DNA of 64,000 nucleotides from Prevotella sp. (GTDB lineage: Bacteria > Bacteroidota > Bacteroidia > Bacteroidales > Bacteroidaceae), in contig JAFZBK010000069.1 of NCBI GenBank assembly GCA_017561825.1, positions 57,249 through 121,248 on the forward strand. Direction: 5' to 3'. Under the pieces are notes generated by a model. That model made no database searches. It was given only the letters and a program-made list of their open reading frames with translations, and was not told the origin of the DNA. Position numbers and translations under genes: made by a program. Shown here piece after piece: positions 30,753 to 58,789 of this stretch. Each line of letters starts with the position of its first letter. The first letter of the stretch is position 1.

Positions 30753-32324
30753 ATGAAAAGAAACATCATAACCTTAGCAGCCCTGCTGCTTACCCTCTCA
30801 CTGAGCGCACAGATGCGCATCAATATCGGAGCAGAGAACCTGCGGAAACTGCAGATTGCCGAGATGGCCATCAGTAACCTCTATGTGGATTCCGTGGATG
30901 AAACCAAATTGGTGGAAGATGCCATCCGTGGTATGCTGAAGGAACTGGATCCTCATTCCTCGTATGCTACGCCCAAAGAGGTGAAATCCTTGAACGAGCC
31001 GCTCCAAGGAAACTTCGACGGTATTGGCGTGCAGTTCAACATGGTGGAGGATACCCTGCTGGTGATTCAGACTGTGGTGAATGGTCCTTCGGAGAAGGTG
31101 GGAATACTCTCAGGCGATCGTATCGTAACGGTTAACGACACAGCCATTGCTGGCGTGAAGATGCCGAAGGAGGATATCATGAAACGACTGCGCGGTCCGC
31201 GTGGCACGAAGGTGAAACTGGGCATTGTGCGTCGCAGCGTTCCTGAGATGCTCTATTTCACCGTTACACGTGATAAGATTCCCGTGAAGAGCATCACGGC
31301 CTCTTATATGATTCGCCCCACTATCGGCTATATCCGCATTGATAATTTCGGGGCTACCACCCATCAGGAGTTTGTCGAAGCCTTGTCATCACTGAAGGAG
31401 CAGGGGATGAAGAACCTGATGCTCGACCTGCAGGACAACGGGGGTGGCTACCTGCAGGCGGCTGTTCAGATTGCCAATGAGTTCCTGCAGCGGAATGATC
31501 TGATTGTCTATACCGAAGGACTCAGGCAGAACCGTCATGATTACTTGGCTGAGGGTAACGGACAGATGCTGACGGGTAAGGTGGTGGTGCTGGTGAATGA
31601 GCTCACAGCCTCAGCGGCAGAGATTGTCTCGGGTGCCCTTCAGGATCATGATCGCGGATGGGTAGTAGGAAGACGCACCTTCGGTAAGGGATTGGTACAA
31701 CGTCCCATCGATCTTCCTGACGGCTCCATGATTCGTCTCACCATCGCGCATTACTATACTCCTTCGGGACGTTGTATCCAGAAGCCGTATAAGAAAGGTG
31801 ACCTGAAGGAATACGAGATGGACTTCGAGAACCGCTTGAAGCATGGCGAACTGATGAACCCTGACAGCATCCACTTCGATGATTCACAGAAGTTCCAAAC
31901 ACTGCGCCAGCATCGTACAGTATATGGCGGAGGTGGTATCATGCCTGATGCCTTCGTTCCCCTCGACACGATGCAATACACACGGTTCCATCGACAGTTA
32001 GCCGCCAAGAGCATTGTCACGGATAAGAGTCTGCGCTACATCGACAACAACCGTAATACGCTGAAGAAGACCTACCCGTCGTTCCAGGAGTTCAACAGTA
32101 AGTACCAGGTACCGCAGTCACTCATCGATACGATCCTTGATGCTGCAGAGAAGCAGAATCTGAAATTCAAGGATGATGAGGAGATGAAGCGCACACTACC
32201 TTACCTGCGTCTGCAACTGAAGGCGCTCGTAGCGCGCGACCTTTGGGATATGACGGAGTATTTCCAGGTGATGAACGAGGAAAACCATATTGTGCAAAAA
32301 GCGTTGGAAGTAATTAAGAATTAA
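30753..32324 (+). CDS. S41 family carboxy-terminal processing protease
   Basis: 523 residues with a signal peptide (about 1-19). A PDZ domain (about 75-165) carries GVQFNMVEDTLLV and GDRIVTVND. The S41 catalytic core has ELTASAAEIVSGAL (nucleophile Ser in TASAAE) and FGKGLVQ (general-base Lys), the Ser-Lys dyad of CtpA/Prc. It cleaves periplasmic proteins at their C termini. Its last residues and stop codon (IKN, stop) lie within the AATTAAG array at 32312-32339. Confidence 0.92.
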   Translation: MKRNIITLAALLLTLSLSAQMRINIGAENLRKLQIAEMAISNLYVDSVDETKLVEDAIRGMLKELDPHSSYATPKEVKSLNEPLQGNFDGIGVQFNMVEDTLLVIQTVVNGPSEKVGILSGDRIVTVNDTAIAGVKMPKEDIMKRLRGPRGTKVKLGIVRRSVPEMLYFTVTRDKIPVKSITASYMIRPTIGYIRIDNFGATTHQEFVEALSSLKEQGMKNLMLDLQDNGGGYLQAAVQIANEFLQRNDLIVYTEGLRQNRHDYLAEGNGQMLTGKVVVLVNELTASAAEIVSGALQDHDRGWVVGRRTFGKGLVQRPIDLPDGSMIRLTIAHYYTPSGRCIQKPYKKGDLKEYEMDFENRLKHGELMNPDSIHFDDSQKFQTLRQHRTVYGGGGIMPDAFVPLDTMQYTRFHRQLAAKSIVTDKSLRYIDNNRNTLKKTYPSFQEFNSKYQVPQSLIDTILDAAEKQNLKFKDDEEMKRTLPYLRLQLKALVARDLWDMTEYFQVMNEENHIVQKALEVIKN

Positions 32325-32339
32325 GAATTAAGAATTTTG
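32312..32339 (+). repeat. AATTAAG heptamer array spanning ctpA stop and ybeY start
   Basis: Three exact AATTAAG units and one AATTTTG. The ctpA stop TAA (32322-32324) and the ybeY TTG start (32337-32339) are both within the array. Confidence 0.85.
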
Positions 32340-32759
32340 ATTACATATAGTGCAGAAGGCGTGAAGATGCCGAAGATCAAGAAGAGAGAGACCACCGCAT
32401 GGATTCGTGCCGTGGCAGCCTCTTATGGAAAGAAGGTGGGAGAGGTAGGCTATCTTTTCTGCGATGATGAGAAGATCCTGGAGGTGAACAACGCCTATTT
32501 AGGTCATGACTACTACACCGATATCATCACCTTCGACTATTGCGAAGGTAACACGCTGAATGGGGATATCGTTATCTCGTTAGACACCATTCGCACCAAT
32601 GCAGAGAAGTTCGGAAAGGACTATGATGAGGAACTGCACCGTGTCATCATCCATGGCATCCTCCACCTTTGTGGCATCAACGACAAGGGTCCTGGAGAAC
32701 GCGAGATCATGGAAGCGGCAGAGAACAAAGCGCTTGCTCAGTTGACAATTAAGAATTAA
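32337..32759 (+). CDS. ybeY: Endoribonuclease YbeY
   Basis: 140 residues from TTG at 32337, since MITYSAEGVKMPKIKKRET matches the family N terminus; the next ATG (32367) would remove ten conserved-looking residues. DYYTDIITFDY and the C-terminal metal site HGILHLCGIND identify YbeY, which matures 16S rRNA ends and takes part in ribosome quality control. Canonical ligands are H-x3-H-x5-H; here the third position is Asp116. The start codon lies in a heptamer array, as does the stop codon. Confidence 0.9.
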   Translation: MITYSAEGVKMPKIKKRETTAWIRAVAASYGKKVGEVGYLFCDDEKILEVNNAYLGHDYYTDIITFDYCEGNTLNGDIVISLDTIRTNAEKFGKDYDEELHRVIIHGILHLCGINDKGPGEREIMEAAENKALAQLTIKN

Positions 32760-32809
32760 TAATTAAGAATGAAGAATTAATTTTTAATTTTTAATCTTTA
32801 ATTTTTAAT
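32747..32809. repeat. Inverted heptamer arrays between ybeY and coaD
   Basis: Nine perfect-length 7-bp units: AATTAAG, AATTAAT, AATTAAG, AATGAAG, AATTAAT, then TTTTAAT, TTTTAAT, CTTTAAT, TTTTAAT. The second half is roughly the reverse complement of the first, so the array can form a long A/T stem between convergent genes. The ybeY stop (32757-32759) is inside; the coaD stop is 8 nt beyond. Confidence 0.85.
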
Positions 32810-32816
32810 TTAATAG

Positions 32817-33254
32817 TTACGGTAGGAACTCACGTACGTCCTTACCAAAGTGAACGAGTTCGCGTACAAGGGAGGAACTGATGCTCTCCATGCCCGGCTC
32901 AGCGAAGAAGAACATGGTATCGATGTTGCCCAGACGACGGTTCACATCTGCCTGCTCACGCTCATATTCAAAGTCCTTTACCGTCCTCACCCCCTTGATG
33001 ATGTAATCAGCCATTTCGCGTTTGGCAAAATCGATGGTGAGGTCGGAATAGGTCTTCACCGTAATCTTCTTCTCGTTCTTATAGAGCTTCTGGATCTTCT
33101 GCTTGCGGATCTCGGCGCTCTGCATATACTGCTTACGTTCGTTCACACCAATACCGATGATGATACGGTCGAAAAGCGGCAGCGCCCTTTTCACGATATG
33201 ATCATGACCAATGGTAAAGGGATCGAAACTCCCCACGAATATTCCTGTTTTCAT
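32817..33254 (-). CDS. coaD: Phosphopantetheine adenylyltransferase
   Basis: 145 residues, slightly short for the family (about 150-165). GIFVGSFDPFTIGHDHI carries the GxFDPxTxGH nucleotidyltransferase motif, YIIKGVRTVKDFEYE the substrate-binding Arg/Lys region and ISSSLVRELVHFGKDV the second conserved motif. It transfers AMP from ATP to 4'-phosphopantetheine in CoA synthesis. Last gene of the minus-strand run after ruvB. Confidence 0.95.
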   Translation of the reverse strand: MKTGIFVGSFDPFTIGHDHIVKRALPLFDRIIIGIGVNERKQYMQSAEIRKQKIQKLYKNEKKITVKTYSDLTIDFAKREMADYIIKGVRTVKDFEYEREQADVNRRLGNIDTMFFFAEPGMESISSSLVRELVHFGKDVREFLP

Positions 33255-33281
33255 CTTATTCTGATCTCGTAATCACATTTC

Positions 33282-33316
33282 CTTTGACTTTTGACCGAAT
33301 CCCTTTGCCCTTCAAA
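33282..33316 (-). repeat. Degenerate heptamer array at the ruvB/coaD junction
   Basis: On the plus strand CTTTGAC, TTTTGAC, CGAATCC, CTTTGCC, CTTCAAA run in register at 7 bp; the ruvB stop codon lies in the last unit. Units are diverged, so this is weaker than the other arrays. Confidence 0.45.
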
Positions 33317-34340
33317 AAAGTTCCGGTTCCATGATATTCCCTGTGTAGGGATTCCTTCCATAGTGCTTGTAGGCCAGTTCCGTGGCCATTCGTCCTCGAG
33401 GGGTACGCTTGATGAATCCCTCCATGATCAGGAACGGCTCATACACTTCCTCCACGGTACCTGCTTCCTCACCAATAGCCGTGGCAATGGTGCCCACGCC
33501 CACTGGTCCGCCCTTGAACTTATCAATGATGGTGAGCAGGATCTTGTTGTCAATCTCATCCAGTCCGTACTGGTCGATGTTCAGTGCCGTTAACGAGAGC
33601 TTGGTGATCTCCGTATCGATATTGCCGTTTCCCTTTACCTGAGCAAAGTCACGTACTCTACGCAACAGGGCATTGGCAATACGGGGCGTACCACGTGAAC
33701 GACGGGCAATCTCCATGGAAGCCTCATCAGAAATGGGCACCTTCAGGATATAAGCCGAACGCTTGACAATCTTCTGCAACGTTTCGGGCTCGTAGTATTC
33801 CAGATGCATGTTGATGCCGAAGCGGGCACGAAGAGGGGCTGTCAACAATCCGCTTCGTGTGGTGGCTCCCACCAAGGTGAAGGGGTTCAGGTCGATCTGG
33901 ATGCTGCGTGCCGAAGGACCCTTATCAATCATGATATCGATACGGTAGTCCTCCATGGCGGAATACAGGTATTCCTCCACGACAGGCGACAGACGGTGAA
34001 TCTCATCTATGAACAGCACATCATTGGGTTCCAACGAAGTAAGGATACCGGCTAAGTCACCTGGCTTATCCAGCACAGGACCGCTGGTGATCTTAAACCC
34101 CACGCCCAGTTCATTGGCGATGATGTTCGAGAGTGTTGTCTTTCCTAAGCCCGGAGGACCATGCAGCAGGGTATGGTCGAGCGGTTCCCCACGGTACTTT
34201 GCTGCCTCCACGAACACCTCCAGGTTCTCCACCACCTTTTTCTGTCCGCTGAAGTCATGGAACCGCAATGGGCGAAGGGCATTCTCAAAATCCTTCTCCG
34301 CCGATGACATCTCCCTTCTTATGTCAAATTCTTCATTCAT
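33312..34340 (-). CDS. ruvB: Holliday junction branch-migration helicase RuvB
   Basis: 342 residues. AAA+ domain with Walker [10 protein letters not shown] (about 63-71), Walker B LFIDEIHR, sensor-1 GATTRSGLL, Arg finger region LRARFG, and a C-terminal winged helix ending [13 protein letters not shown]. It drives branch migration with RuvA. It follows the MFS gene by 44 nt. Confidence 0.97.
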
Positions 34341-34384
34341 CCCTTCTTATTTCGTTCATCCCTGCAAAAATACAAAAATTTTTC

Positions 34385-35596
34385 CTATTGTCTTCGTCTT
34401 TGCTCGAAAAAAAACTTCGTAGCGAAGAAAAAGAGCAGCGTACCTATGGCATTATCAATGGCAACCATCCAGAACGTGGCTGCATATCCCACATATTCAG
34501 ACACCACACCACCCAGCAGAATACCGAACCCCATACCTAAGTCCCACGCCGTCAGAATACTCGAATTGGCAGTACCCCGCTCTTCGTTTCTGGCCACGGC
34601 AATGAACATGTTCAGGAAGGCAGGGAACATATGACCGTTGCCTAATCCGATAAGGATGGCTGATCCGTAATAGCATATAGGTATCAGCGTGGTGTTAGAG
34701 AGATGGGCGGTAAGGGCAAAGAGGGTATAGCCCACCAAGGAGGTCACGATACCCCCTGCTGCATTCTGGGTGAGTCGTCCTTCACGCAGTTGATGCGCCC
34801 CTTGCAACCTGCTGACAAACAAACCTATTGACAACAGCATGAAATAGGTTCCCGTACCTGTGGTGATATGCAGCACCTGCTTACTGTAGATGGCCAGGTA
34901 GTTACTCAGTACACCGAAACAGAAGCTGAACAGCGCGATGTTCACTGCCATCAGCCGAGCACGGGTGAGGAAGAAACGATCGAGCGAGAGATGTGGCAAT
35001 CGCTTACCCTTGACCGTCATCTTCCTTTGTGGTGCTTTATGTATCTTCACCGTGGCATCCACAAGCATGCCCAATCCAGCCACGATAAAGGCGGTCCAGA
35101 ACAGGATATCGAAGCTGTTACAGACGCGATAAAGCCAGATACCTATTGATGGAGCAATGGCCATGGCGAGGTTGTTGCTCAGTCCGTAGTACCCTATCCC
35201 CTCATTACGACGAGAGGAGGGCAGTACATCAATGGCCACGGTACTGTTAGCCACGGTCAGTGCCCCAAAGGGTGCGCCATGCACGGTTCGTACAATGGCG
35301 AACATCAGCAGTGTTCCCGCAGCAATATATCCCGCAAAGCAGATGAAGAAAAAGAAAAAGCAGGTCATCAGCACCTTCTTCCTATTGAAGGTATCCACGA
35401 TGAAACCGCTAAAAGGACGGATCAGTAGTGCAGCAATAATATAGCCTGAAAGGATGATACCAATAGTATCCTTGTTCGTCCCGAACACCTCCGAAAGATA
35501 CAAAGGCAGTAGGGGCGTAAGAAGATAAAAGGCGAAGAACAGCGAGAAGTTGGCTGTCATCACCTTGATGTAGTTTCTGTTCCACAAACGTTCCAC
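34385..35596 (-). CDS. MFS transporter
   Basis: 403 residues, twelve predicted membrane helices. The loop between helices 2 and 3 reads GFIVDTFNRKK, the MFS D-x-x-x-R-K signature. Related proteins are drug or sugar exporters/importers; substrate not predictable from sequence alone. It begins 3 nt after the Fur-like gene and belongs to the run aldo/keto reductase, amidohydrolase, dehydrogenase, Fur-like. That context suggests a small carbohydrate or its oxidation product as substrate. Confidence 0.8.
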   Translation of the reverse strand: MERLWNRNYIKVMTANFSLFFAFYLLTPLLPLYLSEVFGTNKDTIGIILSGYIIAALLIRPFSGFIVDTFNRKKVLMTCFFFFFICFAGYIAAGTLLMFAIVRTVHGAPFGALTVANSTVAIDVLPSSRRNEGIGYYGLSNNLAMAIAPSIGIWLYRVCNSFDILFWTAFIVAGLGMLVDATVKIHKAPQRKMTVKGKRLPHLSLDRFFLTRARLMAVNIALFSFCFGVLSNYLAIYSKQVLHITTGTGTYFMLLSIGLFVSRLQGAHQLREGRLTQNAAGGIVTSLVGYTLFALTAHLSNTTLIPICYYGSAILIGLGNGHMFPAFLNMFIAVARNEERGTANSSILTAWDLGMGFGILLGGVVSEYVGYAATFWMVAIDNAIGTLLFFFATKFFFEQRRRQ

Positions 35597-35599
35597 TTC

Positions 35600-36028: not shown

Positions 36029-36029
36029 A

Positions 36030-37978: not shown

Positions 37979-37984
37979 ATCAAA

Positions 37985-38012
37985 TTGAAAATTGATAATT
38001 GAGAATTGAAAA
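37985..38012 (-). repeat. Heptamer array between the aldo/keto reductase and amidohydrolase genes
   Basis: On the plus strand TTGAAAA, TTGATAA, TTGAGAA, TTGAAAA follow in perfect 7-bp register, with a decayed AATCAAA at 37978-37984. The array starts directly after the reductase stop codon and ends 6 nt before the TTG start of the amidohydrolase. Confidence 0.85.
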
Positions 38013-38963
38013 TTACGTGTTTTGCCAGCGGACGCGCATCTGGTCGCCTATAATCTCTTGTACCTCCTTCACCAACTGCTCATCGATAGGTGCATTCACA
38101 TAATCGATGTTCTTCAATACATTGGCGGGATTGGCGGAGCTGAACAGCGTGGTGGCGATACGGGGATTCAGACTGGTACTGTACTGTATGGCCAGCTTCT
38201 CAATGGGGTAGTTCTTCTCGGCACAGTAGGCAGCTGCCTTTGCGCATGCCTCCTTCAGTGCTTCGGGTGCCGGATGCCAGTCAGGTGTGCCCCGTTGCGA
38301 GAGGAGTCCCATGGAGAACGGAGAAGCATTGATGATACCAATGCCACGACTCTCGAAGAAGTCAAGGTAGTCGAGCAGCAGTTCATCGTTCAGACTGTAA
38401 TGACAGAAGCAGAGTATCGACTCCACCGTACCTTCAGCACTGTTCTCCACCACCCATTTCAGGTTCTCGGGCTGCAGGTCGGTGATACCCACATGCTTCA
38501 CCACCCCTTTCTCGCGCAGTTTCACCAATGCGGGCAATGTCTCGTCAACAATCTTCTGCAGTCCTCCTTCAAGGTGTGACTGGAACTCCACGTCATGCAC
38601 ATTGATCAGGTCAATGTAGTCGATGTTCAGTCGTTCCATGCTCTCATACACGCTGTCGGTAACACGTTGTGCGGAGTAATCCCATAGATTCACCCCATCC
38701 TTGCCGTAGCGCCCCACCTTGGTGGAGAGGTAGAATTGGTTACGAGGAATCTCCTTCAATGCCTTGCCCAATACCGTCTCGGCTTTCAGATGACCGTAAT
38801 ACGGTGACACATCAATAAAGTTGATTCCGTTGTCAACAGCGGTGTGTACGGCCTGTATTCCCTCCGCCTCGCGGATCTCGTGGAATACACCACCTAACGA
38901 GGAGGCCCCGAATCCAAGATTCGACACCAACATTCCCGTCTTTCCTAATTCATTATATACCAT
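38013..38963 (-). CDS. Aldo/keto reductase (L-galactose/L-fucose dehydrogenase-like)
   Basis: 316 residues from ATG at 38963 (MVYNELGKTGMLVSNLGFGAS); the frame is open to 39086 but that region holds the promoter. AKR tetrad is visible: Asp in FIDVSPYYG with its Tyr, Lys in LSTKVGRYG, His in LINVHDVEF. The sequence resembles L-galactose dehydrogenase-type AKRs, which oxidise a sugar at C1 to a lactone using NAD(P)+. The lactonase-like gene follows, so the pair could turn a 6-deoxy or L-sugar into its acid. First gene of the operon. Confidence 0.85.
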   Translation of the reverse strand: MVYNELGKTGMLVSNLGFGASSLGGVFHEIREAEGIQAVHTAVDNGINFIDVSPYYGHLKAETVLGKALKEIPRNQFYLSTKVGRYGKDGVNLWDYSAQRVTDSVYESMERLNIDYIDLINVHDVEFQSHLEGGLQKIVDETLPALVKLREKGVVKHVGITDLQPENLKWVVENSAEGTVESILCFCHYSLNDELLLDYLDFFESRGIGIINASPFSMGLLSQRGTPDWHPAPEALKEACAKAAAYCAEKNYPIEKLAIQYSTSLNPRIATTLFSSANPANVLKNIDYVNAPIDEQLVKEVQEIIGDQMRVRWQNT

Positions 38964-38972
38964 AAGTAACTG

Positions 38973-43665: not shown

Positions 43666-43695
43666 AGTTTATAGATAATAGATAATAGTTAATAA

Positions 43696-44241
43696 TTATT
43701 TTAGAAGTAGTTGACGGGCGAACTCCCAGATAACGATTCCGGCGGTGACGGAAACGTTCATGGAGTGTTTGGTGCCGAACTGAGGAATCTCCAAGCAGCC
43801 ATCACAGATATCCACCACTTCCTGATGAACACCTTTTACCTCGTTACCGAATATAACAGCAAAGCTGTTAATTGACAATTGACAATTGACAATTGACAAT
43901 TCTTGAAGTTTGGTGCTGCCTTCGCATTGTTCCACGGCATAGACAAAGGTGTTGTTGCGATGCAGCTCTTCCACAGCTTCCTTGGCGGTCTTGAAATAGC
44001 GCCATGTCACACTGTCCTCACCACCCAAGGCGGTCTTGTGTATCTCAGGATGTGGCGGCTGGGCAGTGATACCGCAGAGATACACGGCTTCCACGCGGAA
44101 GGCATCACAGGTGCGGAACACACTACCTATATTATACATCGAACGCACATCATCGAGCACTACGATCAAGGGCATCTTGGGTGCTTCCTTGAACGCATCT
44201 ACCGACAAGCGGTTCATCTCTATGGTCCTTAGTTTCCGCAT
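43696..44241 (-). CDS. SpoU/TrmH-family RNA methyltransferase with heptamer-encoded insert
   Basis: 181 residues. LDDVRSMYNIGSVFRTCDAFRVEAVYLCG is the SPOUT N-terminal motif 1, FGNEVKGV motif 2 and IPQFGTKHSMNVSVTAGIVIWE motif 3 with the knot. Likely 2'-O-ribose methylation of tRNA or rRNA. Residues about 114-125 (ELSIVNCQLSIN) are encoded by the AATTGAC array 43870-43901 and lie in the loop just before motif 2. Last gene of the minus-strand run after sufE. Confidence 0.88.
   Translation of the reverse strand: MRKLRTIEMNRLSVDAFKEAPKMPLIVVLDDVRSMYNIGSVFRTCDAFRVEAVYLCGITAQPPHPEIHKTALGGEDSVTWRYFKTAKEAVEELHRNNTFVYAVEQCEGSTKLQELSIVNCQLSINSFAVIFGNEVKGVHQEVVDICDGCLEIPQFGTKHSMNVSVTAGIVIWEFARQLLLK
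43870..43901 (-). repeat. AATTGAC heptamer array inside the RNA methyltransferase gene
   Basis: Four exact AATTGAC units plus AATT. In the minus-strand frame three units (21 bp) encode the 7-residue period QLSIVNC. A change of one unit would shift the frame. Confidence 0.9.
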
Positions 44242-44269
44242 TTTTAATGTTTAATCTTTAATGTTTAAT
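44242..44269 (-). repeat. Heptamer array spanning sufE stop and RNA methyltransferase start
   Basis: Plus-strand units TTTTAAT, GTTTAAT, CTTTAAT, GTTTAAT. The sufE stop (44258-44260) is in the array and the methyltransferase ATG (44241-44239) abuts it. Confidence 0.85.
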
Positions 44270-44677
44270 ATTGTAAGCCAAAGCGTACGCGCGCATCTGC
44301 TTCACCATGGCCAGCAGACCGTTGGAGCGGGTGGGTGAGAGATGTTCGCGGAGACCGATACGCTCAATAAAGTAGAGGTCAGCATCCAGGATCTCCTGTG
44401 GGGTATGACCGCTGAGTACGCGGATCAGCAATGATACGATACCCTTCACGATAAGCGCATCACTCTCGGCCGAGAACCACAGCTTGTCATCGTGGTAGTC
44501 AGCCTGCAGCCATACACGACTCTGGCAACCGTCAATAAGATTGCTTTCAGTCTTGTATTTCTCATCCAACGGCTCCTGCTCATTACCTAAATCGATGAGC
44601 AACTGGTAGCGGTCCATCCAGTCATCGAGTTCTGAGAACTCCTCAATAATCTCGTCTTGTATCTCTTGAATACTCAT
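44258..44677 (-). CDS. sufE: SufE-family sulfur acceptor protein
   Basis: 139 residues from ATG at 44677 (MSIQEIQDEIIEEF); a TTG two codons upstream lies in repeat sequence. NLIDGCQSRVWLQA contains the conserved persulfide-accepting Cys, and SNGLLAMVKQMRAYAL is the family C terminus. It takes sulfur from SufS for Fe-S cluster assembly; sufS and sufBCD are not in the window. Its last residues (NIKH) and stop codon are encoded by a heptamer array. Confidence 0.93.
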   Translation of the reverse strand: MSIQEIQDEIIEEFSELDDWMDRYQLLIDLGNEQEPLDEKYKTESNLIDGCQSRVWLQADYHDDKLWFSAESDALIVKGIVSLLIRVLSGHTPQEILDADLYFIERIGLREHLSPTRSNGLLAMVKQMRAYALAYNIKH

Positions 44678-44679
44678 TT

Positions 44680-44706
44680 CCAATTTTTCAATTTTTCAAC
44701 TTTCAA
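44680..44706 (-). repeat. Short-unit array between the U32 gene and sufE
   Basis: CAATTTTT-type units of 7-8 bp (plus strand) run from the sufE start to the U32 stop codon. Register is less regular than in the other arrays. Confidence 0.5.
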
Positions 44707-45940
44707 TTAGTTTGAACAGTTTATCCGACGGTCGTACCTTATCCGGCACGGCCACAGATACACGGGTGCCCTGTTGTGCCACCTGTACAGCACCATGATC
44801 ATCGTGTATCTCATTGGCGGTGATATACATCACACCTGTTGTAGGACCCGTGATCAGCAGCTTGTCGCCTACCTGGAACGTGGTGGCCTCCACAGAGAAC
44901 TCAGCCACGCCGAGCTTGGAGAAGTACTTCTGTCCTCTACCCACATACACCTTGCGTTCGGTGGCACAGGATCCATATTCCATGTTCCACTCACCCATCT
45001 GCTGTCCTTGGTAGTAACCATCCCAAAAACCACGGTTGAAGACACGCGCCAAACGTTCATCCCATTGATCCTTCTTTTCCTCGGTAAACGTACCATCGAG
45101 CACGCTTTGTATCGCCTCCTTGTAGCATTTCACCACGGTATAGACATACTCAGGACCGCGTGCCCTGCCCTCGATCTTGAACACCCGCACACCAGCCTTC
45201 ATCATACGGTCGATGAAACGAACCGTCTTGAGGTCCTTAGGACTCATCAGGTATTTGTTGTCAACCTCTATCTGATGACCCGTCTCGGTATCTGTGAGGG
45301 TGTAGGAACGACGACAGATCTGCACGCACTCGCCACGGTTGGCAGAGCGGTTGGCAGCATCCAGACTCATATAGCACTTGCCTGAAATGGCCATGCAGAG
45401 AGCGCCATGACAGAACATCTCGATGCGGATGGGATTGCCCGAAGGACCGCAGATCTGTTGCTCCACAGCCTGACGGTGAATCTCTGCCACCTGATCCATG
45501 TTCAACTCGCGCGCCAGCACCACCACATCGGCAAACTGGGCATAGAAGCGCAGGGCCTCGATATTCGAGATGTTCAGCTGCGTGCTCAAATGCACCTCCT
45601 GCTGCACCTGCCGACAGTAGGTCATCACCGCCACATCAGAGGCAATGACGGCAGAGATGCCCGCCTTCTTGGCCGCATCCACAATCTCGTGCATCAGAGA
45701 TATATCCTCGTCGTAGATGATGGTGTTCACCGTGAGGTACGACTTGATGCCGTGCTGGTTGCAGGTCTCGGCAATCTCCTGCAGATCAGTGATGGTGAAC
45801 GTGCTGGCAGAATGCGCCCGCATGTTCAGCTTCTCGATGCCGAAATAGATGGAGTCGGCACCCGACTGGATAGCTGCCGCCAGACTCTCTCTGGAGCCAA
45901 CGGGAGCCATGATCTCAAAATCACTCAGTTTCTGTTCCAT
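44696..45940 (-). CDS. Peptidase U32 family protein (TrhP-like)
   Basis: 414 residues from ATG at 45940. MAPVGSRESLAAAIQSGADSIYFG is the family N terminus, and IEMFCHGALCMAISGKCYMS with RGECVQICRR is the U32 signature with Fe-S-type cysteines. E. coli relatives (TrhP, RlhA, UbiU/V) hydroxylate RNA or ubiquinone, and genuine protease activity is doubtful. By length and the C-terminal beta domain it is closest to TrhP, which makes 5-hydroxyuridine in tRNA; sub-family assignment is inference. 6 nt after the DUF3108 gene. Confidence 0.85.
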   Translation of the reverse strand: MEQKLSDFEIMAPVGSRESLAAAIQSGADSIYFGIEKLNMRAHSASTFTITDLQEIAETCNQHGIKSYLTVNTIIYDEDISLMHEIVDAAKKAGISAVIASDVAVMTYCRQVQQEVHLSTQLNISNIEALRFYAQFADVVVLARELNMDQVAEIHRQAVEQQICGPSGNPIRIEMFCHGALCMAISGKCYMSLDAANRSANRGECVQICRRSYTLTDTETGHQIEVDNKYLMSPKDLKTVRFIDRMMKAGVRVFKIEGRARGPEYVYTVVKCYKEAIQSVLDGTFTEEKKDQWDERLARVFNRGFWDGYYQGQQMGEWNMEYGSCATERKVYVGRGQKYFSKLGVAEFSVEATTFQVGDKLLITGPTTGVMYITANEIHDDHGAVQVAQQGTRVSVAVPDKVRPSDKLFKLIES

Positions 45941-50612: not shown

Positions 50613-50658
50613 CACATAAATGTGGGAAACCCCACAAACAGATAAAATCAATAAGCCC

Positions 50659-51090
50659 ATGAAAATTCTGATTCTAAACGGTCCCAACCTGAACCTGCTC
50701 GGCGTTCGCGAGCCGGGTATCTATGGCAACAGCTCGTTTGACGAGTACCTGCCGCAACTGCGTGCCAAGTATCCCGATGTGGAGATAGAATACTATCAGA
50801 GCAACATCGAGGGAGAGATGATCAACAAGATGCAGGAGGTGGGATTCACCTATGATGGCATCGTACTGAATGCTGGTGCCTATACGCATACCAGTGTGGC
50901 CTTGCACGACTGTATCCGCTCGCTGAAGAGTCCGGTCATCGAGGTACATATCTCTAATGTTCACCAGCGCGAACCCTTCCGTCGCCACTCCCTCATCAGC
51001 AGTGCCTGCAAGGGTGTCATCTGCGGATTCGGACTGGATAGCTATCGGTTGGCCGTGGAAGCAATTATTCAATTGAACATTGAAAATTGA
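50659..51090 (+). CDS. aroQ: 3-dehydroquinate dehydratase, type II
   Basis: 143 residues from ATG at 50659. ILILNGPNLNLLGVREPGIYG holds the catalytic Tyr of the flexible loop region, YDGIVLNAGAYTHTS the substrate-binding Asn, and EVHISNVHQREPFRRHS the catalytic His and Arg. Dodecameric type II enzyme of the shikimate pathway. The last codons (LNIEN) and stop lie in a heptamer array. Confidence 0.95.
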   Translation: MKILILNGPNLNLLGVREPGIYGNSSFDEYLPQLRAKYPDVEIEYYQSNIEGEMINKMQEVGFTYDGIVLNAGAYTHTSVALHDCIRSLKSPVIEVHISNVHQREPFRRHSLISSACKGVICGFGLDSYRLAVEAIIQLNIEN

Positions 51091-51134
51091 TAATTGATAA
51101 TTAATAATTAACCTTTGACCTTTGACCATTGAAG
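51072..51134 (+). repeat. Nine-unit heptamer array spanning aroQ stop and methyltransferase start
   Basis: ATTGAAC, ATTGAAA, ATTGATA, ATTGATA, ATTAATA, ATTAACC, TTTGACC, TTTGACC, ATTGAAG in perfect register. It contains the aroQ stop (51088-51090) and the TTG start (51122-51124) of the next gene. Units drift stepwise from ATTGAAx to TTTGACC. Confidence 0.9.
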
Positions 51135-51933: not shown

Positions 51934-51982
51934 ACAGAACATAAAAAAACGTTTTCCTTTTTATTGTTGAGTGGGAGTAAGT

Positions 51983-53245
51983 TCAGCGAAGGCAGAAATC
52001 TTTCTCCGTGAACTTCGAAAGCGGCAAGCCGAGCGACGAATCAATGAGAGAAATAGTAAAAAGAATTATATGCTTTCCTTCTTCTGTAGTCGTACCAAAC
52101 AGATAACAATCACCCCCGTCGGCCAGTTTCAGTTTCCTGCGCAGTTCCTCTGCCTTGAGTGGAAAATTCCTCACCGCCACGTTGGCCTTTTTCACACCCT
52201 GAAGAGCATCTTTCAGTTCACGCTTGTTCATAGACGAAACGGCCGTGATGCGGAATATCCTACCAGGGAAGTGAGGGATTAGGGTGTCGCTGACAAACAG
52301 ATGACTGTTCCTGGCTATGCCTTTCACGCCATATTGTTCGGCACAGGCACCAAAGCAACCAACCTTCATGATAGAGGCGTTCGGTTCGTAGAGAAACATC
52401 TCAAGCTCTATCTTTTCTGCTATCCTCACGTGCTCATTCATCTGTTCCATACTGCATGTGAACACCTGCTTATCATTCACACAGTAGATGGTCATGGGAG
52501 ATTCTTCCTGTTCGCTTTCCTTCCCTGCCATCACCAACAGCAGTTCCTTGCATTCGTTCCCCACTGAGACCACATGCACCTCCACTACCGACTGCAGTTC
52601 TTGCACCGCCTTGTGCCAGTCGAGCATCGGTGAAAGTTTCACGATAACCCACCGTGCCTTTTGCAGCAGTTCGTCCTTGATGTCCAAGATATTAGGGGTG
52701 CAATCCTGTAAGGCAAAGGTTCGCGCCCCATTCGCATCCCGTCGGGCAGGGTCCAGGTAGATGATATCCGCGTGTTCCATCTGAAGCAGGTAGGCAATGC
52801 CGTCGGCATGGACAACACACGACTGCCGCAGTCCTAACACTTTGAAGTTCTCCTCTGCTATCTTGCACAGATGCTCCTGCTGCTCCACATACACCGCCTC
52901 ATCGAAGACAGGAGAGAGGAAGGAGAAGTCAACCCCGAAGCCACCCGTCAGATCCACCAAACGATGACTCCCCTCCTGCTTCTTCAGCAACCGTTCCGCC
53001 AATGCCGCTTTATACCTGGCCGTCTGCTCACTTGAGCACTGTTCCATGGAGAGACGAGGCGGAAAGGTGATACCCTCGATGGTAGTCCATGAAGGAATCT
53101 TCTTCCTTGCCGTTTGCCACCCCGCAATCTGGTCGAGGGCAAACGACAGGTCAACATCGGGGAAGCGCGCCCCCTGTAAAGCCAGTTCGCGCACATCCTT
53201 CTCACGGTATTGTTGTATAAACTCCTGGGTAGTCATATCTGACAT
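51983..53245 (-). CDS. SAM-dependent methyltransferase with THUMP-like C-terminal domain
   Basis: 420 residues from ATG at 53245; an ATG three codons later (53236) is equally possible. VDLTGGFGVDFSFLS is SAM motif I and DIIYLDPARRD resembles the (D/N)PPY-type motif IV. The C-terminal about 80 residues (KADAL...LKLADGGDCYLFGTT-like) correspond to the THUMP-like domain that accompanies this family. Probably modifies RNA; target unknown. -7 box TACTTTTG at 53262-53255. Confidence 0.8.
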   Translation of the reverse strand: MSDMTTQEFIQQYREKDVRELALQGARFPDVDLSFALDQIAGWQTARKKIPSWTTIEGITFPPRLSMEQCSSEQTARYKAALAERLLKKQEGSHRLVDLTGGFGVDFSFLSPVFDEAVYVEQQEHLCKIAEENFKVLGLRQSCVVHADGIAYLLQMEHADIIYLDPARRDANGARTFALQDCTPNILDIKDELLQKARWVIVKLSPMLDWHKAVQELQSVVEVHVVSVGNECKELLLVMAGKESEQEESPMTIYCVNDKQVFTCSMEQMNEHVRIAEKIELEMFLYEPNASIMKVGCFGACAEQYGVKGIARNSHLFVSDTLIPHFPGRIFRITAVSSMNKRELKDALQGVKKANVAVRNFPLKAEELRRKLKLADGGDCYLFGTTTEEGKHIILFTISLIDSSLGLPLSKFTEKDFCLR

Positions 53246-53254
53246 ATTATGCTA

Positions 53255-53333
53255 CAAAAGTACAAAAAGATACGCGAAAACAAAACAAATACCGTCAAAA
53301 CGTTTCAATGTATTTGTTTTTTTATTACCTTTG
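53255..53333. promoter_or_regulatory. Divergent -7 boxes for the THUMP-like methyltransferase and the 53401 gene
   Basis: Minus: TACTTTTG at 53262-53255, about 10 nt before the first ATG. Plus: TACCTTTG at 53326-53333, 67 nt before the ATG at 53401. Confidence 0.55.
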
Positions 53334-53400
53334 TCGCGGTATTCAATACCGATGTCACCAAAAACAATACCGACAGATTACTTAACCGTTTAAAGGGAAG

Positions 53401-54144
53401 ATGAAAGAGTATATCAAAAAGCTTCAGGAGTTGCTGAAGCAGATCAACAAGAAGCATTTGATTGCTGCGGCCGCCGCAGTGGTAATATTCATCCTTGGCT
53501 TTATCTCAGGATGCAGCTGTGGAGGTCATCATTACGGTAGTTCAAAAGATCTGGGCGTCAGCGAGGCTCTCGACAGCTTTGTGCAAGTCATCCCCGAAGG
53601 TTCTCAGGTTGTGGCCCGCTTTAACGACAACCGTCATTCGTTGTTCTACCTGAACAGCGGTCGTTTGATGCGTTTCAATGCCAAATCGAAGATGCTCGAG
53701 GAGGTGATTCCCTACGAGATCAACAAAGAGGCACGCGTATATTATAATGAGAAAGAGGATATGCAGGGAATCCTAAGTGCAGTGCTGTCAGAGGATGAGC
53801 AGTTCATCATCATCACGGCAGTAACCGACAAGAAGCAGGATAATGAAGAAGAGCCGCAGACCGCCACATATAAACTGAACACCTCAAGCATGAACCTACT
53901 GCCGTTCACACCGCCGCCCGTGAAGGCTGCGCCCGTGAAGAAAGACTCGGTAAGAAGAAGTGCTGCAGCACCGGTGAAGCAACAGCAAGCCATTCCAGTG
54001 GAGGATCTGCCCGAGGTGGGTGATATCGTTCAACCTGAGGATAACACCCCCAAGCCTGCTGCAGAGCCTAAGCCCGCTCCTCAACCTGAGGAGAAGCCCG
54101 CTGCACCACGCGGTCAGGAAACAGTTATTGTGCCTGCAGGATAA
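53401..54144 (+). CDS. Single-pass membrane protein with Pro/Ala-rich tail, unknown
   Basis: 247 residues. A cytoplasmic Lys-rich start (1-20), one membrane helix (about 20-38), then a Cys/His-rich short stretch SGCSCGGHHYG. The middle (about 50-165) is a beta-rich domain with VIPEGSQVVARFNDNRHSLFYLNSG. The C-terminal about 80 residues are Pro/Ala/Glu-rich, like periplasm-spanning linkers. No known family is recognised. It converges on the Fe-ADH gene with a 3-nt gap. Confidence 0.7.
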   Translation: MKEYIKKLQELLKQINKKHLIAAAAAVVIFILGFISGCSCGGHHYGSSKDLGVSEALDSFVQVIPEGSQVVARFNDNRHSLFYLNSGRLMRFNAKSKMLEEVIPYEINKEARVYYNEKEDMQGILSAVLSEDEQFIIITAVTDKKQDNEEEPQTATYKLNTSSMNLLPFTPPPVKAAPVKKDSVRRSAAAPVKQQQAIPVEDLPEVGDIVQPEDNTPKPAAEPKPAPQPEEKPAAPRGQETVIVPAG

Positions 54145-54147
54145 ACA

Positions 54148-55332
54148 TTACTTATTCGCCAGAACATAAACGTTTCTCATATCGGCTTCATCCAATACCT
54201 TGAAGCCGCCAATGGTGATGGTACCACCTCTGCTGCACTGATGGGCCAGCTGGTCGAGTTCCGCCTCGGTAGTCTTCCTACCCAACAGTTCTGTAAGACA
54301 GGTGGGCATGCCAATGGCGCGATAGAACTGCTCCATGGCCTCAATACCCCGAAGGGCAGTACCCTCAGGATCGGTATAGTCGTTTGTCACCCCCATCACA
54401 TTCACTGCAAAGCGTACGAAGCGCGAAACATTCTCGTTCATCACATAGCGTGCCCATGAGCCCCAGATAGCTGCCAAGCCTGCACCATGGGCCACATCGA
54501 ACAACGCACTGAGCTCGTGTTCCAGCTTGTGTGAGGCAAAGTCACGTCGGGTACCACAACCCGTCAAATCATTGTGCGACAAGCTTCCTGCCCACATGAT
54601 CTGGGCACGATGACGGTAGTCGTTCGGATCTTTCAGTACATAGAACACACTATCCTTCACGTTGCGCATCAGCGCCTCGGCAATCTCGTCCGTCAACGTC
54701 ATATCATCATCCTTCGAGAAATAGCGTTCCATGGTATGCATCATGATATCCGTAGCTCCGCAGGCTGTCTGATACGGCGGCAGGGTAAAGGTACGCTCAG
54801 GATTCATCACGGTAAACTTACATCGCACCAGGTTGTTGTTCACGCCACGTTTTAGGCCCTTCTCGTCATCACTGATCACACAGCTGTCGCTCATCTCACT
54901 GCCCGCAGCAGGAATGGTCACCACAGCTCCCACAGGATAGCATGCCTTGGGCACGGCAGTTCCCTCAAAGAAATCCCACACATCACCCTCATACGGCAAT
55001 CCATAAGCAATGGCCTTGGCTGAGTCGATCACGCTACCGCCACCCACAGCAAGGATGAAGTCAACACCCTCCTCTTTGCAGAGTGCAATACCTTTGCGCA
55101 CCAGCGACACACGAGGATTGGGCACTACACCACCCAGCTGCACAAAGGGAATCCCCTCCTGCTGTAGCAGACGGCAAACCTTATCTATCAGTCCTGACCG
55201 CAATGCGCTCTGACCACCGTAATGTACCAGCACTTTCGTGCCACCATATTTCTTCACGAGCAGACCTATCTGCTCCTCTGACTTCTTGCCGAACGCCACC
55301 TCGGTGGGCGTGTAATAAGTGAAATCTACCAT
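54148..55332 (-). CDS. Iron-containing alcohol dehydrogenase (YqhD/BdhA-like)
   Basis: 394 residues from ATG at 55332 (MVDFTYYTPTEVAFG); the frame to 55377 crosses the promoter. GGGSVIDSAKAIA is the NADP-binding motif of group III ADHs; DFASHKLEHELSALFDVAHGAGLA carries the His ligands of the metal site. It reduces or oxidises short-chain aldehydes and alcohols in fermentation. Own -7 box at 55375-55382. Confidence 0.92.
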   Translation of the reverse strand: MVDFTYYTPTEVAFGKKSEEQIGLLVKKYGGTKVLVHYGGQSALRSGLIDKVCRLLQQEGIPFVQLGGVVPNPRVSLVRKGIALCKEEGVDFILAVGGGSVIDSAKAIAYGLPYEGDVWDFFEGTAVPKACYPVGAVVTIPAAGSEMSDSCVISDDEKGLKRGVNNNLVRCKFTVMNPERTFTLPPYQTACGATDIMMHTMERYFSKDDDMTLTDEIAEALMRNVKDSVFYVLKDPNDYRHRAQIMWAGSLSHNDLTGCGTRRDFASHKLEHELSALFDVAHGAGLAAIWGSWARYVMNENVSRFVRFAVNVMGVTNDYTDPEGTALRGIEAMEQFYRAIGMPTCLTELLGRKTTEAELDQLAHQCSRGGTITIGGFKVLDEADMRNVYVLANK

Positions 55333-55374
55333 GATTATTACTGTTTGGGTTAGTGATACTGTTATATTTGATGA

Positions 55375-55382
55375 CAAAGATA
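55375..55382 (-). promoter_or_regulatory. -7 box of the Fe-ADH gene
   Basis: TATCTTTG on the minus strand, about 42 nt upstream of the ATG at 55332. Confidence 0.55.
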
Positions 55383-55417
55383 CAAAAAGTCGAGAGCAGA
55401 AAAAAATAAATTTATAT

Positions 55418-58400
55418 TTATTTTTGCCGAGACGGAGTATCTTCTTGAAATTGTTCCATGAGATTCCTAAACAGCGGGTTAGCTGACAAGATCTGCGGAT
55501 TTCCCGTAACGATTAGTTGCTTGCGGGCACGAGTAAGCGCCACATTCAGTTTACGGTCGATGATACGGAAAGTGCCATCAGCATCTCTCTCTATGAAACA
55601 GTTAGCCGTCAGGAACTCCAACTGATACATGTTCTGTACGGTAAACGAATAGATGATCACATCCCGCTGACTACCTTGATAGCGTTCCACGGTATCAATG
55701 GAAATCTCCAGCAGTGCAGGAATCTGCAACTTCTCTATCTCCCTGCGGATGACAGCAATCTGGTTGCGGTAGGGAACAATCACGCCTACGGTGGTGTTCG
55801 GATCAAAGGATCCGCCGTATGCATCGTAGATTCGCTTCAGTTGTGTTGCCACGATCTGTGCCTCCTCGGTATTCACCTTGTCAGACAATCCCGGTACTTT
55901 GCAGAATTGTGAGGGGATGAACAGGAGGTTGGCGTGGGCTGGCTCCTGCTGATGTTGCAAGGGAACAGGCTCCAGGTGCTCGTTGGGGTAGAACATCCTA
56001 CAAGGGAACTCCGCAATGGCAGGATGCATACGTCCTTGTTTGTGGAGAACCCCCTTGACGTTATCAGGAGCAGTGCGAAGCAAACGTTCAAAGAGTGATT
56101 GTCTGCAGTTGGTGAGTCCAATGCCTTGCAGTAAGGGATCATCCGTACGACTGTCCTTATCATCCTGTTGCACCACTGCTGGCAACTGCTTATGGTCACC
56201 AATGAGAATGAACTTGTTGATACAGCATTGATTGTCTTTATGGGCAGCAAGGAGTCCTATGATGTCAGGCTCGAGTATCTGACTGGCCTCATCAATGACC
56301 GCCAGGGTGAATGACCTCAGGTTAAAGATCTCCGTATGACTCAGTAGCGTGGCTGTAGTTCCCACGATGATGGGTGTCTGAAGGATGCGCCTGCTAATGG
56401 CATCCAATCGTGGGTTCTCTTCAATGATGTTGGCGATGAGGTTACCATGGAACCGAGGATCACAACGATGGGCACTGCCCATGCGGATAAAGTCATGATG
56501 ACTGTTTGCCAACATCGAGCAGATCTCATCCACAGCACGGTTGGTATAAGCCATGAGAAGGATGGATGCCTGCGGATCAGTCATCTCTTCCTCTACTAAG
56601 AAACGCAAGGCCATACTGGTCTTACCCGTCCCTGGAGGTCCTGTTATCAGGAAGTAATCCTTAGCTTGTTTGGCTTGCAGCAACACCTCATCGTAATGCG
56701 GATGATAAGAGCGTGATAAGGTGCGTGAAGGATCCGTCTGTGGCACCCGTTGTGCCAACAGCAGGTCTTTGCGTTCCTTGGGTGCTGAGATAAAGGTATG
56801 AAGAGAGCGTATGGCGGAACCTGACAGTTCAGAAGAAGTATGCTCAATGGCATAGCAGATGTCGTCAGGTGTCAAAAGCGAATCATCCTTGGTAAGCAGT
56901 CGTCCGAAGATATCGGGGTTCTGCTGACCTTCAGAAAGAACCACCGTCACTTCATCCGTGAGGATATGCTGGAGCACGCCTTTGAAGAGGATGCTGTTAC
57001 GCACGTCAGGCTCTTTCCCTTTGAGGTAGGCATACAGGTACACCATATCACCAGGACGGAAGTTCGGAAGGAAATCCTCACCCTGATCAGGAACGCTCAG
57101 TGTCAAGGTGTCGAAACCATTGTATTCTGCGCTCTTCTCCTTTTTCATGAGTTGTAGTCCTATGAAGATATCCCCTATTTCCTTCTTCTCTGCCAACGGC
57201 ATATTCCATAGGTCAGCCCCACATCTGCTGATACCCTCCTGTGCACCTAATTTACTGATACGTTGCTCTCGATAGACGAAGGTCATCATCCTGCAATAAT
57301 AGGCTCGTTCAAGGGGTGACAAGTTATGTAAGGGGGCGCATATCTGCTGCAATGACGGCAGTTTCCAACGATGATAGAACTCGTTGTTGAGCTGTTTCAC
57401 ATTCACTGTTTCAGGACGAATCATGTCAATCACCGCCTCAAAGCCGTAACGGGCCATATAGAGCTCCCATGCCACGATGAGGTTCCGCAGTTGTATCGCC
57501 TCGCGGAAGAGCTTCTGGAAGAAGTTCACCACCACCAATCCCTGACGTGCTGGATACTTCGAATAGAGCAGTCGTATATCCGTTTCATCAACCCCCAAAT
57601 GGAAGTTCTGACGCAACACGCCATAGTACAACAGCAGCTGCACATAATTGGGTTCCAGCATCATGCTACCATGCTCGTCAGGTCTTCCCGACTCAATGAA
57701 GAAGTTCTTGCCCGACTTCTGTTCCACCAGCAGTTTCCCGTCAGTGGTCATCAGGTCAACACGACCTGCAATGCCGAGGTGCTCGCATACGAACGAAGGC
57801 TCCAGGATGGCCTTGTCCCTGTTGTTCGCCTCAAAGAGGGTTTGTACCGCCTCCCTGATATTTGTCGTCTGACTCTTCGCATCTTCAAGGAACTTGTCAG
57901 GATTGAAATCAGGACAAGTGCAGAACTCCATGGCTTTCTGCTTGAAGCATTTGATGATGGTGGTGTTGAGTGAACCCTTGTCATCATTGATGGTGTCATC
58001 CAACGACTGACTCGCGAAGAATCCCAGCAGGATGGGTTGCGAGACGGTCGAAGGTGCCATGCGGTTAAGGGTATAGTTAAGCGGATGGTGGCCATACTGC
58101 TCGAAGCAACGGGCAATACTACTGATATCAATGAGGAAATCAGGTTCTACCACGATGAGAGAAGGAATCATCCGCTCATCCTCTTTCCGCACCTCCAGCA
58201 GATTCAGTTGCATCCCTTCCTGCAGTACCTCCTTCAGGTAGCACAGATGGGGTGCCGTGTAATCAACCACCAGCAGGTCGTCTGCATCTTCCTGTGCCGT
58301 GGTGACAGTAATGGTCTCTTCATCCCATTCCCTGACGATGCAGCGGATATAGTCGTAACGATCACCTTGATGCGAATCGGGAATCTTGTTCGTGGCAGGT

Positions 58401-58789
58401 ATTCGTGTCAAGATGTTGTGAGGCACGGAGGTGTGGAACACCGCCGAGATGAACAGACACAAAGCACGGATGTCGTACATCAAATCCTCATACGACAATG
58501 GCTCACGACGGTTACTGTGGCGGCGCATGGTCTGGATGGCAATCCTGTCGGTTACCGCCACCTGGTGCTTCTTACAAAGGTAGTCAACCTGTGAGAAGAG
58601 GTTACCGTAGGCTTGGTTGGTATCCCGTATGGCCTCATGACAGGCCAAGACGAGGATGCGATGAAGGGAGTTGACAATTGACAATTGACAATTGACAAAT
58701 GACAGTTGGTCCAAGAGTTCACTGATCTGTCCGAATAGATCCTCGGCAGACACATGATACACATACTCCATTTCCATCCCGTCAACCAT
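55418..58789 (-). CDS. Dna2-like nuclease-helicase (PD-(D/E)XK plus SF1 helicase)
   Basis: 1123 residues. The N-terminal third ends in a Cas4/RecB-like nuclease with GIAGRVDLMTTDGKLLVEQKSG (about 335-356; Asp and Glu-x-Lys of the PD-(D/E)XK site). The helicase core starts at ITGPPGTGKTSMA (Walker A, about 715) and has LAVIDEASQ (motif II), GDHKQLPAV (III), VGVIVPYRNQ (IV), TVERYQGSQRDVII (V) and NVALTRARKQLI (VI), the UPF1/Dna2 type. It probably processes DNA ends or flaps. Residues about 28-40 (LSFVNCQLSIVNS) are encoded by the TTGACAA array at 58671-58705. Its ATG overlaps the upstream stop by 1 nt. Confidence 0.85.
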   Translation of the reverse strand: MVDGMEMEYVYHVSAEDLFGQISELLDQLSFVNCQLSIVNSLHRILVLACHEAIRDTNQAYGNLFSQVDYLCKKHQVAVTDRIAIQTMRRHSNRREPLSYEDLMYDIRALCLFISAVFHTSVPHNILTRIPATNKIPDSHQGDRYDYIRCIVREWDEETITVTTAQEDADDLLVVDYTAPHLCYLKEVLQEGMQLNLLEVRKEDERMIPSLIVVEPDFLIDISSIARCFEQYGHHPLNYTLNRMAPSTVSQPILLGFFASQSLDDTINDDKGSLNTTIIKCFKQKAMEFCTCPDFNPDKFLEDAKSQTTNIREAVQTLFEANNRDKAILEPSFVCEHLGIAGRVDLMTTDGKLLVEQKSGKNFFIESGRPDEHGSMMLEPNYVQLLLYYGVLRQNFHLGVDETDIRLLYSKYPARQGLVVVNFFQKLFREAIQLRNLIVAWELYMARYGFEAVIDMIRPETVNVKQLNNEFYHRWKLPSLQQICAPLHNLSPLERAYYCRMMTFVYREQRISKLGAQEGISRCGADLWNMPLAEKKEIGDIFIGLQLMKKEKSAEYNGFDTLTLSVPDQGEDFLPNFRPGDMVYLYAYLKGKEPDVRNSILFKGVLQHILTDEVTVVLSEGQQNPDIFGRLLTKDDSLLTPDDICYAIEHTSSELSGSAIRSLHTFISAPKERKDLLLAQRVPQTDPSRTLSRSYHPHYDEVLLQAKQAKDYFLITGPPGTGKTSMALRFLVEEEMTDPQASILLMAYTNRAVDEICSMLANSHHDFIRMGSAHRCDPRFHGNLIANIIEENPRLDAISRRILQTPIIVGTTATLLSHTEIFNLRSFTLAVIDEASQILEPDIIGLLAAHKDNQCCINKFILIGDHKQLPAVVQQDDKDSRTDDPLLQGIGLTNCRQSLFERLLRTAPDNVKGVLHKQGRMHPAIAEFPCRMFYPNEHLEPVPLQHQQEPAHANLLFIPSQFCKVPGLSDKVNTEEAQIVATQLKRIYDAYGGSFDPNTTVGVIVPYRNQIAVIRREIEKLQIPALLEISIDTVERYQGSQRDVIIYSFTVQNMYQLEFLTANCFIERDADGTFRIIDRKLNVALTRARKQLIVTGNPQILSANPLFRNLMEQFQEDTPSRQK
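58671..58705 (-). repeat. TTGACAA heptamer array inside the nuclease-helicase gene
   Basis: Four exact TTGACAA units and one ATGACAG. In the minus-strand frame they encode the same QLSIVNC period as the array in the RNA methyltransferase gene (43870-43901). Confidence 0.9.

Follow-up and report, generated by a model that had tools for sequence, protein, structure and literature searches.

What are the tandem arrays of seven-nucleotide units that stand at so many gene ends in a 64-kb stretch of DNA from Prevotella sp. (hereafter the window, meaning the whole stretch at its full length), and how did they come to be there? Heptamer repeats are known in unrelated bacteria and have no accepted origin. 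The window (49.6% GC) belongs to a draft genome of 2.98 Mb, 88% complete and designated G000, which is kin of rumen Prevotella assemblies; the S41 peptidase of the window shares 93% identity with two such assemblies. The answer proposed here, to which we give even chances, is that the arrays are dispersed palindromic repeats, comparable to repetitive extragenic palindromes (REP), miniature inverted-repeat transposable elements (MITE) or Rickettsia palindromic elements (RPE), on which slippage acts and which selection has positioned. Since relatives carry different repeat words at the same sites, and since the arms are paired, the core can be traced and some copies lie in frame within genes, the origin and turnover of such repeats become directly testable. 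The elements also alter proteins, as by an in-frame insert in a membrane protein of five genomes, and gene order, as around ybeY.

Arrays in the window were located with Tandem Repeats Finder and a lag-7 scan, the lowest listed threshold being a score of 9. At a score of at least 10, the window holds 12 runs of period 7, 11 at its harmonic 14 and 0-2 at each other period from 4 to 15. The genome-scale counts were made on four whole contigs of G000 (574,185 bp), which are the longest among the contigs known from earlier matches rather than a blind draw. Here, 82 period-7 runs, merged into 81 arrays, were counted, whereas three local order-1 resamplings gave 2, 2 and 0, and every other period from 3 to 30 gives 0-18 runs, except the harmonics 14 (64 runs) and 21 (49 runs). 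An earlier note on the window had called its arrays too regular for chance, and this excess bears it out. The note had also named the outcomes that would speak against it, namely, that shuffled sequence would have as many period-7 runs or that the runs would bear no relation to gene ends; neither was found in the 574 kb. Its five main arrays are present at the positions that it gave, give or take a few bases (32312-32336, 32747-32811, 37982-38014, 44243-44269 and 51072-51132). Of three weaker ones, 23094-23111 is indeed of period 7, whereas 44677-44708 has a period of 8 and 33282-33316 gives no run at a score of 9. To these are added the arrays at 19413-19443, 43671-43698, 43870-43901, 58671-58704 and 61266-61283, as well as an inverted pair, 20835-20865 with 20926-20956.

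An artefact of metagenome-assembled genomes (MAGs) is disfavoured as the source: arrays at orthologous sites agree across separate assemblies, and in 197 kb from named strains or non-MAG records, 14 period-7 runs were observed in six of the ten loci. Some contigs of G000 begin or end in heptamer arrays (C4:3-23, C36:1-28, and C49:32965-32985 of 32989), which suggests that the arrays break assemblies.

The repeat words are shared between loci much more often than random seeding would give. The 81 arrays use 35 dominant words, as against about 76 expected from random intergenic seeds, and 3.6% of array pairs have an identical dominant word, as against 0.18% under the random-seed null and 0.29% under an AT-matched one. 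When a single array is taken per 400-bp cluster (69 clusters, 31 words), the figures are again 3.6% and 0.18%, with an AT-matched null of 0.32% and a maximum of 1.1% over 500 draws. Such sharing among unlinked loci, about 20 times the random-seed null and 11-13 times the AT-matched one, tells against a tentative alternative, in which the arrays are simple repeats born by slippage in 7-nt steps, drifting neutrally and purged from reading frames, with the palindromes made through template switching. In favour of slippage are the heptamer excess known in unrelated bacteria (in parts of PMC4692102 and PMC4679880, both of which cite a proposal by Mrazek in 2007 that polymerase slippage favours 7-nt steps) and graded arrays, such as C17:157149-157240, that step through word changes.

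Across the genus, the pattern AATTRAN occurs in 218 of 299 genomes, with very uneven counts. It is the prevailing word in 54 of them (20 matches or more, and over four times those of its mirror), the mirror ARTTAAN prevails in 15 (20 or more, and over twice those of AATTRAN), and 71 have neither. The reversed pattern is unusable as a null, as the reversed AATTAAG is its own rotation and the reversed AATTRAN is a common word elsewhere.

In its fullest form, the repeat is a palindromic element, typically of 90-160 bp, in which 3-6 heptamers form one arm, a complementary array forms the other, and a core, mostly of 30-110 nt, lies between them. A search for complementary arms returned 44 candidates, 18 of them in 814 kb of G000, 15 in stretches of the relatives G060 and G061, and 11 in 78 loci of relatives; at least one (G61C23:36244) is not built of heptamers. 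Upon alignment of 14 elements with related cores, a stem of 34 pairs was observed in which 88.2% of cells are paired, as against 53-64% in slid controls. Double changes were seen in 15 of the 34 pairs, and none of 500 shuffles reached any of the five covariation measures. Similarly, in 35 elements recovered with a core model (partly the same as the 14, and with at least four retained that look misanchored or truncated), arm-to-arm identity after reverse complementing is 0.83, whereas shuffled pairing gives 0.71 and, in 5000 shuffles, at most 0.77. Both arms are of one word class in 32 of the 35, where 58% would be expected, arms that fit no class being assigned to ‘octamer’ by a tie rule. In many elements, the variant units also stand in the same order on both arms. 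The cores, when read in six frames, contain open frames. No Rfam family matched at its gathering score within the window.

The core is likewise dispersed. The core model, R1, which rests on sequence only, has at least 14 copies in G000, 44 in G060, 27 in G061, 17 in G062, 14 in G063 and 42 in G122; the best 150 candidates were scored in each genome, and these copy numbers may be underestimates. Three more genomes (G207, G291 and G242) have match places identical to those of G061, G062 and G063 and were treated as the same genomes. In 31 other genomes examined (19 + 12), R1 had no match. The R1 core family is confined to one group of relatives, and the heptamer arrays themselves are wider. That a dispersed conserved core exists at all is a second difficulty for slippage.

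The unit length has some latitude as well. Octamer-armed elements were also found in G122, G060 and G000, and in one locus of a relative (L042), seven of eight period-8 runs consist of GGTACGAG-like octamers; a length of 7 is, therefore, dominant but not fixed. In two related genes at C11:92534-92686 and C11:111724-111886, presumably M6-peptidase-like by their motif, a 93%-identical core is shared between heptamer arms, in frame.

Orthologous sites reveal the turnover of the arrays. Among contig C25 of G000, G060 and G061, 39 distinct site pairs were compared, and in 17 of them the counterpart has an array too, as against 16 of 543 random sites. Ten of the 17 have a like word and seven an unlike one (at least two positions differ); among the matches listed, six of seven like-word arrays are gap-free within the array. 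Contig C2 of G060 is 86-99% identical to G122 by block, mostly 92-98%, and carries 54 array clusters counted from both sides, of which 12 have no colinear counterpart, 16 have the same interval length and 26, at 15 sites, differ in length. At position 96426 of this contig, both arms are of the GGAAGGA kind; G122 has, at the same site and around a homologous core, two arms of the GTGGAGT kind, the relatives being 95-97% identical around it. At 52959, the two genomes share an identical left outer arm, and the core in G122 encloses, by eye, a nested octamer-armed element; at 88293, AATTGAA units form an array opposite an AGTTCAT tract. Elsewhere, several sites differ by 7 or 21 nt, and these indels are what slippage would produce. 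Slippage is less at ease with two arms that differ in word together at one site and with unlike words at seven of 17 shared sites. The gap-free state of six of the seven like-word arrays listed also counts against it, yet between G060 and G122, more clusters differ (26) than keep their length (16). The question of whether the arrays behave as hypermutable contingency loci meets the same division, as the like-word orthologues listed mostly keep their length and the G060/G122 clusters mostly differ.

In the explanation that we favour, the arrays would be part of a set of short repeats dispersed over the genome, with the palindrome of heptamer-array arms as the fullest form. The elements may spread by copying in a non-autonomous, REP-, MITE- or RPE-like manner, to which the dispersed core and the shared words point. 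Many solo arrays would be half-elements, remnants or arrays seeded from elements, and slippage would add or remove units in 7- and 21-nt steps. It was suggested in the earlier note that a mobile or templated repeat system could be at work; this suggestion gains support from the complementary arms, the dispersed core, the words common to unlinked loci and the unlike words at conserved sites.

Several points weigh against dispersal by copying. Only 16 of the 81 arrays (20%) sit in detected pairs and about four in five are solo, by a hand tally, and the descent of most A/T-rich solo arrays from palindromes stays conjecture. Hybrid elements with unlike arms exist (G060:C2:56084 and L117:2550). In 22 of the 39 orthologous site pairs, there is no counterpart array; the 39 pairs are non-independent, as they come from three genomes with one site entering three pairs, and the random-site baseline of 16 in 543 is not restricted to gene ends. 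AATTRAN is found in 52 of 119 genomes sampled across the order, in many other Bacteroidales families; this recurrence, which suits slippage, is not what a clade-specific mobile element would explain by itself. The occupied/empty comparisons, which covered the orthologous sites listed and G060/G122, showed no clean empty site that had a target duplication. No transposase is tied to the elements, a systematic search for an autonomous element not having been made. The Y1 transposase of the REP-associated tyrosine transposase (RAYT) type, PF01797, was searched for in five genomes, being absent from G060-G063 and giving one weak match in G000. Mobilisation by Y1/RAYT is thus rejected for G060-G063, and in this the elements differ from REP/RAYT systems.

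A more doubtful reading regards the repeat word as a rewritable ‘dialect’, in which the period and the palindrome are inherited but the sequence is not, both arms being renewed together and the word spreading genome-wide. One arm might be copied from the other by fold-back replication or repair, or heptamers might be templated at DNA ends. With this would fit the joint difference of both arms at one site, the matching order of variant units between the arms of many elements, the unlike words at shared sites, the nested octamer-armed elements and the genome-specific prevailing words. The hybrids argue against strict two-arm copying, and replacement of the whole element would give the same picture.

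Under dispersal by copying, the question of position falls to selection: elements would survive after genes, in spacers and, if in frame, within genes, and no dedicated coupling or regulatory role would be required. Gene positions were taken from a purpose-made codon-usage gene caller (445 genes), with which start codons are uncertain; C11:92659, for one, was tallied as intergenic, yet an open frame runs through it. Twenty-eight of the 81 arrays lie over one stop codon, two over a start and a stop, one over two stops and two over a start only, while 30 are intergenic and 18 intragenic. A stop codon is overlapped by 31 arrays (38%), as against about 2.4% under uniform placement for the given gene-end kind. 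Of 32 stop-overlapping cases, 26 have a stop-bearing word on the coding strand, as against 5 of 18 intragenic ones (Fisher p=0.0003). Because 7 is coprime to 3, a stop-bearing heptamer word closes all three frames within 21 nt, and at a gene end, it would provide a new stop in any frame. It had been claimed that the arrays are placed at gene junctions and may tolerate only intercistronic sites. As a rule, this fails: junction-only placement is rejected by the 18 intragenic arrays, and two arrays inside genes, 43870-43901 and 58671-58704, lie within the very range of the claim. From motifs recognised by eye, we take some of the host genes to encode RadA, SufS, GH95, GH3, guanine deaminase, GltD, an amylase, an M6 peptidase and a beta-galactosidase.

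The bias towards stop codons also invites an unlikely explanation, namely that the arrays are functional cis elements (terminators, mRNA-stabilising hairpins, protein-binding arrays or translational-coupling devices) kept by selection. Paired forms are able to make long hairpins, and Xanthomonas repeats have a like downstream bias (parts of PMC4692102). However, a terminator would do harm in the 18 intragenic cases; words, cores and even presence vary between relatives; and the 71 genus genomes with neither AATTRAN nor its mirror do without. Translational coupling, raised in the earlier note, is without support, as a start codon is touched by just four of the 81 arrays, starts being uncertain, and as arrays occur within genes and at convergent junctions with words that vary between relatives. 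The similar C-terminal tails that had been remarked upon are real, but they are no sign of a shared device: IKN and IEN are the readout of whichever frame enters (AATTAAG)n or (AATTGAA)n, the former ending in I-K-N-stop, and are thus dictated by the heptamer words.

A defence-type reverse transcriptase that writes heptamers would be the least probable maker; the model for it is DRT10, whose product is tandem-repeat cDNA (part of PMC12632851). A UG26-class enzyme (the G060 protein scores 532 bits with PADLOC RT_UG26) occurs in G122 and in each of the five element-bearing genomes that were first examined, and UG26 genomes are richer in AATTRAN (median 26, n=29, versus 7, n=270; p=0.001, uncorrected for ancestry). 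Nevertheless, UG26 is rejected as necessary or sufficient, since genomes without it reach 252 AATTRAN matches, three of the 29 with it have none (one being 50% complete), and nine UG26 genomes lack the R1 core family. The genes lie at L223:1318-2520 (G060:C30) and G000:C50:206-1384; that of G060 adjoins radC and an open reading frame of 169 amino acids, and a close relative is present in 29 of the 299 genus genomes.

Short dispersed non-autonomous palindromes in spacers are well known as REP, bacterial interspersed mosaic elements (BIME) and MITE, and the terminal inverted repeats and many dispersed copies seen here are MITE-like. Tandem heptanucleotides, too, are known as the short tandemly repeated repetitive (STRR) sequences of filamentous cyanobacteria, and the earlier note's analogy with them is fair as to kind. 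The nearest analogue found in print is, however, a different one, the GGGAATC repeats of Xanthomonas with their inverted pairs (parts of PMC4692102). According to the same parts of that paper, the GGGAATC and GGGGA(C/T)T heptamers of Xanthomonas and Nostoc have variable positions, are dispersed, mostly intergenic and placed shortly behind the upstream open reading frame, with inverted neighbours in 70 cases among 186 patterns and 75 among 183; the Xanthomonas repeats are G-rich and 89-93% intergenic; and the same gene pair may carry repeats of differing length and sequence in sister species. The over-represented period of 7, downstream bias, inverted close pairs and turnover between sister species are all shared with the present arrays. 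In contrast to about 90% intergenic placement there, 30 of 81 arrays are intergenic here, 33 lie over a gene end and 18 (22%) are intragenic. The Xanthomonas words have G tracts of the quadruplex type, whereas, by eye, AGGAGGG alone of the 35 has three adjacent G and the other 34 have at most two on either strand. The words here are A/T-rich or G/A-rich, many of them coexist, and a conserved multicopy core lies between some of the arms.

Another relative in kind is the TAACTGA family, 7-nt direct repeats that are intergenic and patchily spread in Beggiatoaceae, some Cyanobacteria and five Bacteroidetes (parts of PMC4679880). The patchy spread, including Bacteroidetes, is a likeness, but TAACTGA is not among the 35 dominant words, and in Beggiatoa it mostly lies just before start codons (same source), unlike the arrays at gene ends here. 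Rickettsia palindromic elements, of about 150 bp, lie in frame within unrelated protein genes (part of PMC10969869); compared by description, they resemble the present elements in such insertion and differ in that the arms here are heptamer tandem arrays. The portions examined of PMC5771137, on P. gingivalis repeats, contain nothing on heptamers. The combination of features described here was not found in searches of the open-access literature.

The consequences for genes are seen within the window, where gene names rest on a separate analysis and not on motifs recognised by eye. A palindromic element at 19413-19534 (plus strand) lies in frame within a phosphoethanolamine-transferase-like gene (18979-20847). 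An element is present at the same place in G060-G063, with other arms and cores, and the frames of all five genes are open (618-650 codons from stop to stop). By eye, the segment coded by the element looks to lie between two membrane helices. A second element, at 20833-20958, stands at the 3' end of this gene, with GAGTAAG/CTCCTTC arms and a 52-nt core, and a third (61266-61398, AAGAAGC..GCTTCTT) has a type-I core and lies at a convergent junction. An AATTGAC array (43870-43901) is in frame within an RlmB-like gene (43696-44241, minus strand), where G060 has an array pair and its interval is 57 nt (19 codons) longer; an ATAGATA array (43671-43698) lies over the stop of the same gene. A TTGACAA array (58671-58704) is in frame in a helicase gene (55418-58789, minus strand), in its 5' part, and the corresponding interval of G060 has heptamer tracts of other wording.

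Gene order is affected at ybeY (32337-32759, plus strand), which lies on the same strand as the S41 peptidase gene in the window and opposite to it in all four of G060-G063. The S41 peptidase gene (30753-32324) has its stop codon in the AATTAAG array of 3.6 units at 32312-32336 (plus strand), and the left breakpoint of the inversion falls at this array, at about 32329-32336. The right breakpoint, at about 32750-32790 against G060 and 32735-32792 against G061, falls at or in the fused inverted arrays (AATTAAG)n/(TTTTAAT)n at 32747-32811, a convergent junction that contains the ybeY stop. The start codon of ybeY is ATG in the relatives' loci L031 and L032 and TTG in the window. In L031, the arrays that flank ybeY are in inverted orientation; recombination between them is, therefore, a plausible cause of the inversion.

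Of the other arrays of the window, an AAATTGA array (37982-38014) is placed between two minus-strand genes and has a gap-free orthologue in G060. A TTTAATG array (44243-44269) covers a stop codon, and its place in G060 is taken by a GAAGGAC array that, by eye, is accompanied by part of a type-I core. An ATTGAAC..TTTGACC array (51072-51132) spans the stop of aroQ (50620-51090) and the following start; G060 has no array run there and G061 has an AACATTA array. At 23045-23111, a period-8 AAAATTGA run (23045-23077) is accompanied by a period-7 AATGTTC run around GGTAATCAT, and the period-8 run at 44677-44708 lies at a gene end.

Other dispersed repeats are found in the window and elsewhere. One is a structured repeat of about 65 nt (TTTTGGAGCAGCGA..CGAGTCGTGACAAAA) that has a variable hairpin and, in many cases, heptamer arrays on its flanks. 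It gave 17 matches, the query's own place included; its sites include 63791-63979 of the window, C17:11553, C17:18544, C11:49463 and L124:13437, among others. A 75-bp unit related to it is tandemly repeated in the window. Furthermore, two dispersed families of about 120 bp, at 24669-24789 and 26282-26409 of the window, have many matches in G060-G063 at about 70-82% identity.

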